IMG/VR virus record: IMGVR_UViG_3300017708_000377
Location: 1-35,763 of that record
Length of the DNA: 35,763 bases
DNA from: a virus
Strand: one strand, 5' to 3'
The notes beneath the pieces are model-generated. The model saw only the letters and a list, made by a program, of their open reading frames with translations, did not search any database and was not told the origin of the DNA. The position numbers and the translations under genes were made by a program. Below, one piece after another: positions 13,601 to 19,703 of the stretch. Position 1 is the first letter of the stretch. The number at the start of each line of letters is the position of its first letter.

Positions 13601-13812
13601 GACAATACCAATTCTTGATGTTTTCTAATTATATCATTCATATTAGGTTTAGGCGGTATTTCTATCACTTTGTGGTTTACTTTGCCATTGGTTATTTTAT
13701 CAACAACTACTGAAGAACTTTTATCATCAAATAAATTGATTGTAACAACCATATTATTTTCGTGGTCAACTAAAGTAGTATAACTCCATCTTTTTTTATG
13801 CGAGTGGGTCAT
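13597..13812 (-). CDS. Small protein of unknown function (71 aa)
   Basis: 71 residues with a beta-rich core (WSYTTLVDHENNMVVTINLF) and a helical C-terminal end. It overlaps the upstream DUF1367-like gene by 17 bases and its stop overlaps the probable ATA start of the Ref-like gene, so it is within the minus-strand recombination operon. No family is recognised. Confidence 0.7.
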   Translation of the reverse strand: MTHSHKKRWSYTTLVDHENNMVVTINLFDDKSSSVVVDKITNGKVNHKVIEIPPKPNMNDIIRKHQELVLS

Positions 13813-14191
13813 AACCTATAGCCTCAGATAGTTTTTCCATAGCCAATTCAAAATAATCGTTAAATTCTTTTTGGCTCATATCATCAAACGAAATGCTGTC
13901 CATAATACGCATATGTGCGCTTGCTAGACTGTTCCACCTCATTTTGACATATCCACACGCCCATTTCAATTCGCTGTGCAAATGTTGTTCTGTCGGCCAT
14001 CTGTTGGTAGCATCACAAACATTTTTAAGTGTTGCCCAATACAAATTGTGATGTGGGTTTGAACGTTTACCAGTAGCTTTGATATCAAATACTTGATTAT
14101 CTTTGCAATCTCCTAGTTTTTTTGCATCATAGTCTGTAACGGGCAATAACTGCCCGTCACGTTTGATAACTTGTAATTTTATTGTGGCCAT
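13796..14191 (-). CDS. DUF1367-like phage protein (NinB-neighbour type)
   Basis: 131 residues. The segment SNPHHNLYWATLKNVCDATN, then LHSELKWACGYVK and a final SISFDDMSQKEFNDYFELA, follows the general plan of DUF1367 proteins, which occur in recombination/replication regions of lambdoid phages. No enzymatic motif is clear. It overlaps the HTH gene by 13 bases. The family match is from memory and moderate. Confidence 0.65.
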   Translation of the reverse strand: MATIKLQVIKRDGQLLPVTDYDAKKLGDCKDNQVFDIKATGKRSNPHHNLYWATLKNVCDATNRWPTEQHLHSELKWACGYVKMRWNSLASAHMRIMDSISFDDMSQKEFNDYFELAMEKLSEAIGYDPLA

Positions 14192-14409
14192 AATTCTTTA
14201 TTTTGGTCTAGAGAATATTGAGCCCAACTTTTTTTACCGTTACCTACCATAACTTTATCAATAGGCCACCCCTGGTCTTTTTTTAATCTGTGAATGACTG
14301 CTGCAAGTCTAAAACACCCAAACTGATTTAGTGCTTCTATAGGCGTTATTGTTTTGCCTGATTTAAGTAGGTGTAAAACATTCCCATCTTGTGTTGTAAT
14401 ATCTTCCAT
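14179..14409 (-). CDS. Helix-turn-helix domain protein (HTH_39-like)
   Basis: 76 residues. The stretch VLHLLKSGKTITPIEALNQF followed by GCFRLAAVIHRLKKDQGWPI is the signature of a short winged helix-turn-helix family common in phage recombination operons. It probably binds DNA. The start is preceded by an AAGGAG ribosome binding site (minus strand), and it lies 14 bases after the SSB gene. Confidence 0.78.
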   Translation of the reverse strand: MEDITTQDGNVLHLLKSGKTITPIEALNQFGCFRLAAVIHRLKKDQGWPIDKVMVGNGKKSWAQYSLDQNKELWPQ

Positions 14410-14423
14410 AATTTACTCCTTTT

Positions 14424-14750
14424 TTAAAATGGTATTTCTTTTTTGTCTTCTGTTGGTTTATTACCAAGAAGTTCTAAATTTCTTGCGAATATGTTTAAAT
14501 ACACTTTCTTTTGATTGTTATCGTCAATTGTTTCATTCATAGAAAAATCTCCAATAACACTTACTCTTTTACCTCTTTTTAAAAATTCACCGACCCCAAC
14601 AGAATGATATCTGCAACTAAAAAAAGTAGCCGGGGCATCTTTTTTATAAGTGTCATTTACTGCCACACTAAAACGTAAGCTTGGTTTTCCGTTATATTCT
14701 ACCTGCTCTGCGTCAGCAGTAAGGTTTCCAATAATTATTATTTCTTTCAT
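14424..14750 (-). CDS. ssb: Single-stranded DNA-binding protein
   Basis: 108 residues, an OB-fold SSB. It begins MKEIIIIGNLTADAE, has the conserved RFSVAVND strand, a W/F-containing FFSCRYHSVG segment, and the GEFLKRGKRVSVIGDF motif. The short tail ends KKEIPF, resembling the acidic tip (D-D-I-P-F) that binds host proteins. It is shorter than the 150-180 residues of bacterial SSBs because the linker is reduced. It starts in an ATGA overlap with the annealing-protein gene. Confidence 0.9.
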   Translation of the reverse strand: MKEIIIIGNLTADAEQVEYNGKPSLRFSVAVNDTYKKDAPATFFSCRYHSVGVGEFLKRGKRVSVIGDFSMNETIDDNNQKKVYLNIFARNLELLGNKPTEDKKEIPF

Positions 14751-15331
14751 AGTCCAAGTTCCTTTTTTCTTTTTTCATGTGCGTTAACAACATCATCATA
14801 TTGAGGTTCACTAATATCAGGAGCGTTTAGTAAATTTTTGTAACGCTTTTCATTAGCTATAAATTTGTCCATGTTGCAATCTTCATAGAATGTAATAGCA
14901 GCATCTACCCTAGCTTCTGTGTCTAGGTTCATTATTTTTTTAGGCATAGCTTCTTCTATTTCATCGGCTTCTGCCTGACTGTAAACGTGACCATGCAAAC
15001 CAATTAGTTTTAAGATTACCCGATCTTTTGCCCTTTTCTCACTCATAGCGTAGGGGTAATTGTTTTTATTATTGTAAGGTGTGGCTTCGCCAATAGACCA
15101 TTCAGTCTTGTCACCCATATGACCAGTAACACACATGACAGCGTGTTTTTTACCTGCGTCACTTTCAATCATAACTGGCGCATCGAATACAATATTATTT
15201 ACGGCAGCAATTCTTTCACAAGCTTTATGTAATAGAACAGGTGTACCATGAACATCCCATGTGGCTTCTTCTTGCGTCATGTCTATTGTCTTTAGTATTT
15301 CTAATAATTTTTTTGGTAATTGTTTCACCAT
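14747..15331 (-). CDS. Probable single-strand annealing recombinase (Erf/Sak-type)
   Basis: 194 residues. The middle region has KACERIAAVNNIVFDAP, a GHMGDKTEWSIGEA segment, and NNYPYAMSEKRAKDRVILKL followed by IGLHGHVYSQAEADE. This YAMxEKRAxDR pattern is that of phage annealing proteins of the Rad52/Erf superfamily. Annealing proteins pair complementary ssDNA and usually work with the phage SSB, which lies directly downstream. Exact subfamily cannot be decided by eye. Confidence 0.7.
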   Translation of the reverse strand: MVKQLPKKLLEILKTIDMTQEEATWDVHGTPVLLHKACERIAAVNNIVFDAPVMIESDAGKKHAVMCVTGHMGDKTEWSIGEATPYNNKNNYPYAMSEKRAKDRVILKLIGLHGHVYSQAEADEIEEAMPKKIMNLDTEARVDAAITFYEDCNMDKFIANEKRYKNLLNAPDISEPQYDDVVNAHEKRKKELGL

Positions 15332-15567
15332 TATACGTCCTCTCTTGATGCTGCTTCAGCTTGTTTTAAAGCAATCACGTTTTCCTCTAGTTTTTGTAAA
15401 AACAAATCATGGCTTATAACCGCCGTTTCTTTGCCCGCTATAATAGCGTCCAGTAGCGGTGTTATATATTCTGGTGGTATGTTTAGTTCATTTATTACAC
15501 GCAATACTTCTTTAGTAATGTGTAATGCCATATCGTTAGGTGATGGGTATTTTAATGGGTAAGTCAT
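15331..15567 (-). CDS. Small protein, first gene of recombination operon (78 aa)
   Basis: 78 residues, helical and slightly acidic. It is the first gene after the leftward promoter. Ribosome binding site AAGGAAAG precedes the ATG. Its stop shares one base with the start of the annealing-protein gene. No family is recognised. A role as recombination accessory or early regulator is only contextual. Confidence 0.7.
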   Translation of the reverse strand: MTYPLKYPSPNDMALHITKEVLRVINELNIPPEYITPLLDAIIAGKETAVISHDLFLQKLEENVIALKQAEAASREDV

Positions 15568-15955: not shown

Positions 15956-16645
15956 ATGAGTAACCTAGTTTCGAACTTAATACAAACAAAAACAATAGGT
16001 TCACCCACAAAAAAAGCTATTTTAATGTATATGTCAGATAAAGCTAGTGATGATGGTAGCGGTATTTGGGTAAGCAAAGGCAATATGGCAGCAGACCTGG
16101 AAATGTCTAGTCGAGCAGTCCGTCACCATATAAAAGAAATGTTGGCAATGGGTGTATTGAAGGAGGCAGGACAAAAAGAATGCCGCTACGGATACACCAT
16201 AGATTATCAAATTAATTTAGATATCGTTGCTAAACTACCGTCGACTAGACCACCCCTGAATGACGTTCACCCCTACCAGGGCACTACATTCACCCCTACC
16301 CCTGAATGTGGTTCACCCAAACCATCCTATAAACCACCCAATGAACCATTATTAATGTCAGTTCTAGATAAACAATTTAACCAATTTTGGGACAAGTACC
16401 CTAGAAAGACAGCTAAACAACCTGCACAAAAAGCTTTTCCTAAAGCGATGATGAAAATAAGTTTTGAAGAGCTTATGGAAAAATTAGATGTTTTTATAAA
16501 ATTTTATAAAGATACGAAGAAACAATTTTTACCTCACGCTAGTACATGGTTAAATCAAGAGCGTTGGTATGATGAATATGAACAACCAGATAATAATTTA
16601 GATTTACAAAAAACAGTTTTAAGAGAGATGTTAAATGCGAAATGA
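15956..16645 (+). CDS. Replication initiator, lambda O-like
   Basis: 229 residues. The N-terminal part (about 1-80) is a winged-helix domain, with KNMAADLEMSSRAVRHHIKE-like helices (seen as GNMAADLEMSSRAVRHHIKE). A proline-rich linker follows (about 95-130). The C-terminal part carries FNQFWDKYPRKTAKQPAQKA and LPHASTWLNQERW, a motif set shared by phage replication organisers. The linker is encoded by DNA with iteron-like repeats. It probably binds these repeats and recruits host helicase. An AGGAG lies 9 bases before the start. It overlaps the next gene by 11 bases. Confidence 0.78.
   Translation: MSNLVSNLIQTKTIGSPTKKAILMYMSDKASDDGSGIWVSKGNMAADLEMSSRAVRHHIKEMLAMGVLKEAGQKECRYGYTIDYQINLDIVAKLPSTRPPLNDVHPYQGTTFTPTPECGSPKPSYKPPNEPLLMSVLDKQFNQFWDKYPRKTAKQPAQKAFPKAMMKISFEELMEKLDVFIKFYKDTKKQFLPHASTWLNQERWYDEYEQPDNNLDLQKTVLREMLNAK
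16252..16318. repeat. Iteron-like direct repeats inside initiator gene (candidate origin)
   Basis: TTCACCCCTACC occurs exactly at 16266-16277 and again at 16289-16300, with TTCACCC at 16312-16318; starts are 23 bases apart each time. A longer pattern, ACCCCTGAATG-NN-GTTCACCC, occurs at 16252-16272 and 16298-16318, 46 bases apart. The 23-base period is not a multiple of three, so this is a DNA-level repeat, as in the lambda origin within gene O. An A+T-rich stretch follows. Confidence 0.6.
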
Positions 16646-17105
16646 TGAACTTAAACAAAAAACGTTAAAAATGTTGGGGCGATTAAATGCTCCTAGAGCC
16701 GTTCAAAATAATGATGAAAACATGAAAAGCGAAGCAGAATTTTTATGTAATCAAATAATAAAATTAGCTCCAAGCAAAAATTATAATGATTGGTTTGTAG
16801 ATTTTGAGGAAAATTTGCTATCTAATTTAGAAACTAGAACCTGGCCTACTGCAAAAGAAATAAGCAAATCGGCAAAAGCTATAGCACCAAAAAGGCCAGA
16901 ATTTAGAGAGCTTCCGCTAGAAAAATACCAGCCAAATGAATTAAAAATAAATGCAAACAAGATTATTAATGGAGAAGAAGTTGGTGAAAGTTACGTTACC
17001 GGGGCTCTATCACAACAAATGTTAAGGGCTGGTTTAGTAACTAAAGAGCAGTTACAACCTTACGTCGATTATTTAAACTATACAAAAAAGCAAATATATG
17101 GTTAA
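16635..17105 (+). CDS. Probable replication accessory protein (helicase-loader position)
   Basis: 156 residues, overlapping the initiator gene by 11 bases. The region is helical, with EAEFLCNQIIKLAP and WPTAKEISKSAKAI as recognisable conserved-looking segments and a C-terminal YLNYTKKQIYG. Immediately after an O-like initiator one expects a helicase loader such as lambda P, but no ATPase or zinc motif is visible, so that is context only. Confidence 0.65.
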   Translation: MRNDELKQKTLKMLGRLNAPRAVQNNDENMKSEAEFLCNQIIKLAPSKNYNDWFVDFEENLLSNLETRTWPTAKEISKSAKAIAPKRPEFRELPLEKYQPNELKINANKIINGEEVGESYVTGALSQQMLRAGLVTKEQLQPYVDYLNYTKKQIYG

Positions 17106-17812: not shown

Positions 17813-17900
17813 TTGGCAAGATAAAATAATTTTTGTTCTAATGATTGTATTTATGACTATCATAGCCCTTAACATAGACAGCTTCATGGTGATGCAATGA
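17805..17900 (+). CDS. Tiny single-span membrane protein (31 aa)
   Basis: 31 residues. A short charged N-terminus (MIDWQDK) is followed by a hydrophobic span IIFVLMIVFMTIIAL. It overlaps the previous gene by 8 bases, and its TGA overlaps the next ATG as ATGA. Both junctions are coupling-like, and the protein has clean transmembrane composition, so coding is likely. Function is unknown. Confidence 0.55.
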   Translation: MIDWQDKIIFVLMIVFMTIIALNIDSFMVMQ

Positions 17901-18103
17901 GTAGAATGGAAACTTGGGAAGAAATAACAAATCGACATAAAAAAGAAAAATTCGATTTGGTGCAAGGGTTAGGTTTGCAGGGCTTAACCCAGGCACAAGC
18001 ATCTAGAAAATTGCAAGTCAAACGCACAATGTTGAATAATTACATTCATCGCAACAAAGTTCGCTGGCCTGTTATAAGACAGGGGGTTAGAATTAATGAA
18101 TAA
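17897..18103 (+). CDS. HTH protein (68 aa)
   Basis: 68 residues. LTQAQASRKLQVKRTMLNNY is a Myb/resolvase-like helix-turn-helix with a basic C-terminal end, so DNA binding is probable. It overlaps the tiny membrane protein as ATGA and the next zinc-ribbon ORF by 8 bases. Confidence 0.65.
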   Translation: MSRMETWEEITNRHKKEKFDLVQGLGLQGLTQAQASRKLQVKRTMLNNYIHRNKVRWPVIRQGVRINE

Positions 18104-19298: not shown

Positions 19299-19334
19299 AC
19301 ACAACATATAGACGCACCCACAATGGACGGTACT

Positions 19335-19703
19335 ATGGCGGGACGACCTACTAAATATACTGATAAATATTGCGATGATGTTATTTCCCTGGGAAAACAG
19401 GGTCTTAGCCTAGAACAAATGGCATTCGAGTTAGATATAGCCGTATCAAATTTCTACATATGGCAAGAAAAACATCCTGAATTTCAGGAGGCCGTAAAAA
19501 AGGGGCGAGCATTCGCGCAAGGTTATTGGGAAAATGAACTATCAAGGGCAGCACTTGGAAGAAACCCGGAAGGCATTACACCTAACCCTACGCTAATGAT
19601 TTTTCAGATGAAAAACCGTTTCCCTGACAAATGGCGAGAGAAACAAACTACAGAGCATGAGGTTAGTGGTGCTAAAAAGGTTGTCGTTGAATGGGGCGAG
19701 TAA
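19335..19703 (+). CDS. terS: Terminase small subunit
   Basis: 122 residues from ATG 19335 (MAGRPTKYTDKY). An upstream in-frame ATG at 19323 is possible, but GGACGG (19325-19330) precedes 19335 like a ribosome binding site. The N-terminal LEQMAFELDIAVSNFYIWQE is a helix-turn-helix, and the later NPTLMIFQMKNRFPDKWREK is the typical small-terminase end. It recognises the packaging site and hands DNA to TerL, encoded next in an overlapping frame. Confidence 0.88.
   Translation: MAGRPTKYTDKYCDDVISLGKQGLSLEQMAFELDIAVSNFYIWQEKHPEFQEAVKKGRAFAQGYWENELSRAALGRNPEGITPNPTLMIFQMKNRFPDKWREKQTTEHEVSGAKKVVVEWGE

Follow-up and report, generated by a model that had tools for sequence, protein, structure and literature searches.

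A probable lambda-type replication origin, built of iterons and a second repeat array, within the O-like initiator gene of an IMG/VR virus contig

The in-gene iteron origin of phage lambda is a textbook case, and the origin of most phages is unannotated. The locus described here raises the question of whether repeats lying inside an O-like initiator gene constitute an origin of that kind in a virus with unrelated sequences, as a preliminary description of this DNA had proposed. The analysed DNA (hereafter the window) is a single IMG/VR virus contig of 35,763 bp, from a marine phage. From comparisons of the window with its relatives, the segment is very probably a phage replication origin of the lambda type, situated in the linker-coding part of the initiator gene and comprising iterons and probably a second array, with helicase loading that may involve a partner protein. 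The features are collected in Table 1.

Table 1. Features of the origin candidate and its surroundings (positions in the window)
Feature	Position	Strand	Basis and remarks
O-like replication initiator gene, 229 aa	15956..16645	+	phrog_270 E 1.9e-33, several O-like PHROGs, 47 relatives; holds the origin candidate
Winged-helix domain, N-terminal, residues about 4-93	15965..16234	+	AlphaFold2 pLDDT 77-93; in the PDB it matches winged-helix proteins
Predicted recognition helix, residues 52-65, SRAVRHHIKEMLAM	16109..16150	+	helix in model; class co-varies with iteron core
Iteron 1	16252..16274	+	dyad TGAATGACGTTCA at 16257-16269
Iteron 2	16275..16297	+	right half ATTCACCCC intact, left half degenerate
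Iteron 3	16298..16320	+	dyad TGAATGTGGTTCA at 16303-16315
Second repeat array, AAACCATCC / AAACCACCC / GAACCATTA, 12-bp steps	16319..16355	+	found at this position across many lineages and in every codon phase
AT stretch, 80% AT, possible unwinding region	16350..16379	+	composition; after array
Partner gene, 156 aa, helical	16635..17105	+	overlaps initiator; lambda P position; conserved beside initiator in about 45 relatives

The initiator was compared with PHROG and Pfam profiles. The match to phrog_270 covers residues 14-213, and that to phrog_391, annotated as 'replication initiation O-like', has an E value of 2.4e-9; the O-like match is significant and spans both the N- and the C-domain. 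Unlike the lambda O class, the protein remains below the gathering cut-off of Pfam PF04492 Phage_rep_O (13.7 versus 28.7 bits). In the origins of iteron plasmids (Rep_3 / RepA), direct repeats stand beside a second region used for unwinding; the window likewise has direct repeats adjoining a second region, but iterons of the plasmids lie upstream of the initiator gene, whereas those of the window lie inside it, and a Rep_3 domain was absent from the Pfam matches of the initiator. An AlphaFold2 model built on an alignment of 29 relatives placed a winged-helix N-domain, already suspected in the preliminary description, before a low-confidence stretch at about residues 97-130 and a helical C-domain. 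Structure searches with the N-domain returned winged-helix proteins, a result that speaks for the fold only. The low-confidence interdomain stretch is the part encoded by the iteron repeats, and this linker is presumably disordered.

Three 23-bp units with the core TGAAY-NNN-RTTCA-CCC occupy 16252-16320. The unit is best given as TGAAY-NNN-RTTCA, a dyad of 13 bp, with CCC after it, recurring with a period of 23 bp, the middle copy being without its left half; a scan of the whole window located complete dyads at 16257 and 16303 only. The repeats first noticed at this locus, namely TTCACCCC(TACC) at 16266 and 16289 with TTCACCC at 16312, and two copies of ACCCCTGAATG-NN-GTTCACCC at 16252 and 16298, were all recovered, with steps of exactly 23 bp and a spacing of 46 bp (2 x 23), respectively. 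GTTCACCC occurs 7 times in the window (0.48 expected), several occurrences being scattered single sites, and the special feature is its clustering, not its count. An arrangement of at least three dyad repeats at 20-24-bp steps, within the gene and between the domains, is thus present, with two of the three window dyads complete. The best self-match of the initiator gene scored 17.0, a value reached by none of 1000 synonymous-codon shuffles and by none of 1000 codon-order shuffles.

A 23-bp step is not divisible by 3, so the repeats fall in three reading frames (one iteron DNA unit is translated as VHPY, FTPT or GSPK), and the protein cannot keep them alike. Selection at the DNA level, postulated earlier from this lack of codon phase, is borne out by the shuffles and by the relatives of the initiator (47 contigs). 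Across the 38 unique genes entering the fourfold-site comparison, fourfold-degenerate third positions were identical in 89.5% of cases over codons 98-126, compared with 41-54% over codons 1-97 and 55-66% past codon 126, so that synonymous sites are frozen only in the repeat-coding codons. Amino-acid identity over the same codons was just 69%; because fourfold sites are 90% identical while amino acids vary, the conserved entity is the DNA. The persistence of the repeats despite protein drift, proposed at the outset as a check whose failure would refute the reading, was found in relatives with 56-85% protein identity, which retain the RTTCA cores with their 23-bp period. The number of iterons is not constant in this family, some relatives (L031, L035-L044) having one additional upstream iteron, four versus three.

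The iteron core changes in step with the predicted recognition helix. The TTCA half-site is found with helices RAVR(I/Q/H)HI or RAVQ(I/L)AI; TGCA, changed together in all four copies, with R(T/A)LQTN(M/I/V) (L047, L138 and others); and the GTCCAC..GTGGAC core with STVKRT in most Rhodobacteraceae loci, the counts behind these pairings being raw and taking no account of shared ancestry among loci. Locus L047 combines an N-domain and iterons of the window type with a different C-domain, and in L117-L128 a C-domain of the L047 type is fused to another N-domain and accompanied by quite different iterons (TTGCCCCACAGGGCAA, 22-bp step). Because N-domain and iterons stay joined when the C-domain is swapped, they behave as one cassette. 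These observations support the view that the iterons evolve together with the helix predicted to read DNA, and that the N-terminal winged helix is their likely binder. A lambda-like iteron origin in an O-like gene, as originally put forward, is accordingly favoured by the DNA-level conservation, by the co-variation of helix and iteron and by the joint swapping of N-domain and iterons.

Directly downstream of the iterons lies a second array, absent from the preliminary description. At 16320-16351 of the window, where the iterons end, it reads AACCATCC-TATA-AACCACCC-AATG-AACCATTA, with 12-bp steps; this copy is imperfect, and an array arises in 2.6% of the synonymous shuffles of the gene. It probably belongs to the origin as an unwinding or loading element. 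Elsewhere, AACCATCC arrays with 11-12-bp steps follow no fewer than 15 different iteron sequences and occur with several types of C-domain. Over 130 distinct contexts, a few of which may be other repeats, the array occurs in all three codon phases and with both steps (KPSYKPP, NHPKTIH, TILPTIP), and six combinations of phase and step were seen directly behind iterons across lineages. Synonymous shuffles gave an array at rates of 0.05-5% in most of the lineages shuffled, 7-18% in L031, L256, L271 and Decurro, and 67% in L135; as some of these rates are high, the case for the array is its recurrence across lineages and frames and no single gene.

A scan of viral contigs for AACCATCC-N4-AACCATCC, which itself selects for the motif, provided 101 testable new loci, 41 of them with upstream repeats of 19-26 bp, mostly of period 23. 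With the reversed motif as a control, such repeats were found at 14 of 107 loci; on visual inspection these were mostly simple repeats coding for Thr-Pro, with L388 in addition. The latter shows an apparent two-part origin of its own, a 24-bp repeat GATAGATAGGCCCAAAAACGGGCC followed by GAACCTACCAAT repeats, with GAACCTACC units. Loci chosen by protein alone gave the same picture: coliphage SfV and the Arthrobacter phages Galaxy, Marchesin and Decurro have close variants of the array, and in a set of Rhodobacteraceae loci the array was mostly present, with 11-bp steps and in other codon phases; the selection rule of this set is unbiased and its starting point is not, the query proteins having come partly from motif hits. 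These initiators (L238-L317) share with the window the N-domain family, the 23-bp dyad iterons and an array directly behind, and differ in the array steps, the codon phases (NHPKTIHKPP) and, mostly, the GTCCAC..GTGGAC core. In some 65 of the Rhodobacteraceae loci (L252-L317, e.g. L259, L291), a closely related initiator comes with iterons and array. Of the two loci viewed, L259 has a LacI-type regulator and Fic as neighbours and L291 an AbiE toxin-antitoxin; this difference suggests an integrated element or island that is widespread and has an origin of its own.

In most GC-rich lineages (GC >=0.5) the array ranks within the lowest 5% for duplex stability over the 800 bp around it, in part because its sequence is fixed. 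In the window, the least stable duplex within 800 bp is at +159, off the array, and the AT stretch behind the array has only a moderate stability rank (0.27) in an AT-rich genome. Four Rhodobacteraceae loci (L249, L256, L271, L292) have a GC-rich, hairpin-like ACGCGCAAGCGCG directly after the array, replacing the AT-rich tract. The canonical array is not universal, being absent in lambda, L058, Vibrio K67, KellEzio and AB1, and L117-L128 have AACCAG units in its place. Winged-helix-type initiators with repeats inside the gene and an AACC array of 11-12-bp step behind them were also observed in SfV, Escherichia PhiR49_2 and the Arthrobacter phages Galaxy, Marchesin and Decurro (array variants AACCAGTC in SfV and AACCGTCCTTG in Galaxy). 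Their iteron cores differ from that of the window, their proteins are distant (about 25-35% identity), and the records read give no origin annotation. The idea that the GGATGGTT strand forms a two-tier G-quadruplex was dropped, the AACCAGTC variants being without the second GG. A BLAST search of phages and plasmids with a 40-base consensus of the array was uninformative, probably because the low-complexity filter masks the repeats.

Could the AACCATCC array be a recombination joint for swaps of the initiator module, with no working part in the origin? It does lie at the border between swapping modules. However, given the differing codon phases and the 11- versus 12-bp steps, an exchange would throw the gene out of frame, and the array comes in 2-4 copies and forms a duplex of low stability in GC-rich lineages; we consider such a role unlikely. 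Iterons, N-domains and C-domains differ while the array stays, so whatever reads it is probably common to the lineages. It is possible, and we propose it tentatively as a reading that stops somewhat short of an even chance, that phage origins have in this array a second element, widespread and undescribed, which is common to initiators whose iterons are unrelated and whose C-domains are of several kinds, the phages being those of alphaproteobacteria, actinobacteria and other hosts. Its reader might then be a conserved host replication factor, or the array might serve through single-strand contacts during melting, the iterons giving the initiator its specificity.

The binding of O and the role of the AT-rich tract in the origins of lambda and Stx phages are treated in PMC7466680. 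When lambda was used as a control, its iterons were located at 39034, 39054, 39078 and 39101, midway in O and followed by an A-rich tract. The two loci agree in having dyad iterons at 20-24-bp steps, in mid-gene between the domains of an O-like initiator, and a partner gene directly downstream. They differ in that the lambda iterons (ATCCCTCAAAACGAGGGA) are unrelated to those of the window and number 4-6 units instead of 3, and in that lambda has an A-rich tract (GACACAAAAGACACTATTACAAAAG...) without the AACCATCC array. This comparison bears on the proposal that the repeats are operator or roadblock sites, or incompatibility sites, for the initiator's own transcription, the origin being elsewhere. 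Although a winged-helix protein binding inside its own gene would also regulate that gene, the sites are about 300 bp into it, far from a promoter position, they sit in the interdomain linker of every relative read, usually followed by the second array, and they occupy the position of the lambda ori, all of which renders an operator function improbable.

Also improbable is an action of the array in RNA, as a C-rich Rho-utilisation-like or translation-pausing element of an origin-crossing transcript: CC dinucleotides at 11-12-nt steps and an A/C-rich transcript would be compatible with it, and the activity of the lambda origin is known to depend on transcription, but it gives no reason for the tie between array and iterons. 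Selection at the protein level for a proline-rich linker peptide, with the repeats as a mere consequence, is very improbable and was rejected for the iterons, for although the linker is rich in Pro, Thr and Ser and peptide motifs such as KPSxEPSxEP recur, the iteron steps are out of codon phase, synonymous shuffles fail to recreate the iterons, fourfold sites are frozen, and a given DNA repeat is translated in more than one frame, both inside a gene and from gene to gene (EPS, NHP, TIP). As to the array, the contexts compared indicate that lineages with other peptides keep the DNA, which speaks against a peptide origin there too.

For the origin in the linker-coding segment, a lambda-like scheme is the simplest reading of the mechanism. 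Initiator dimers would use the N-terminal winged helix to bind the 23-bp dyad iterons, as the co-variation supports, and the bound dimers would form an O-some-like complex. This complex could open the neighbouring AACCATCC array of 11-12-bp step and the AT-rich DNA that follows, whereupon the helical C-domain and the 156-aa partner would load a DnaB-type helicase onto the single strand so exposed, a step suggested by gene order. The order of the two genes is O-P-like, with SSB-like and NinB/Orf-like genes nearby, and in the Ruegeria locus L239 the initiator is followed by a small gene and then a DnaB-type helicase. The partner gene is also kept in L047, where the initiator has another C-domain. 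From its position, the partner is suspected to be a helicase loader or adaptor; the protein had no family or fold match and no detectable homology to a known loader. Lambda P appeared in its fold search with an E value of 6.8, which is not significant and is not taken as evidence.

The candidate resembles the known lambda-type in-gene iteron origin and departs from it in its unrelated iterons and additional array; in the open papers searched, no description of a AACCATCC array or of a two-part in-gene phage origin was found. A candidate origin becomes readable from sequence alone, as dyad iterons that co-vary with a helix and are followed by an 11-12-bp AACCATCC array, and this two-part pattern offers a route to predicting origins in uncultured phages. 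The relation of helix class to iteron would amount to a natural recognition code, with the array as a shared second element.

GC skew, suggested earlier as a check, gave no useful origin signal, since at this site it does not separate replication from gene orientation; it is negative over 13-16 kb, in agreement with the orientation of the genes. A divergent module on the minus strand (13796-15567), containing the NinB/Orf-like and SSB-like genes, adjoins the origin candidate. Further downstream, the ORFs at 17897-18103 and 19323-19703 both match phrog_309, a family of terminase small subunits, the former only weakly (E 0.00099), and the window may therefore hold a partial second copy of the terminase small subunit.
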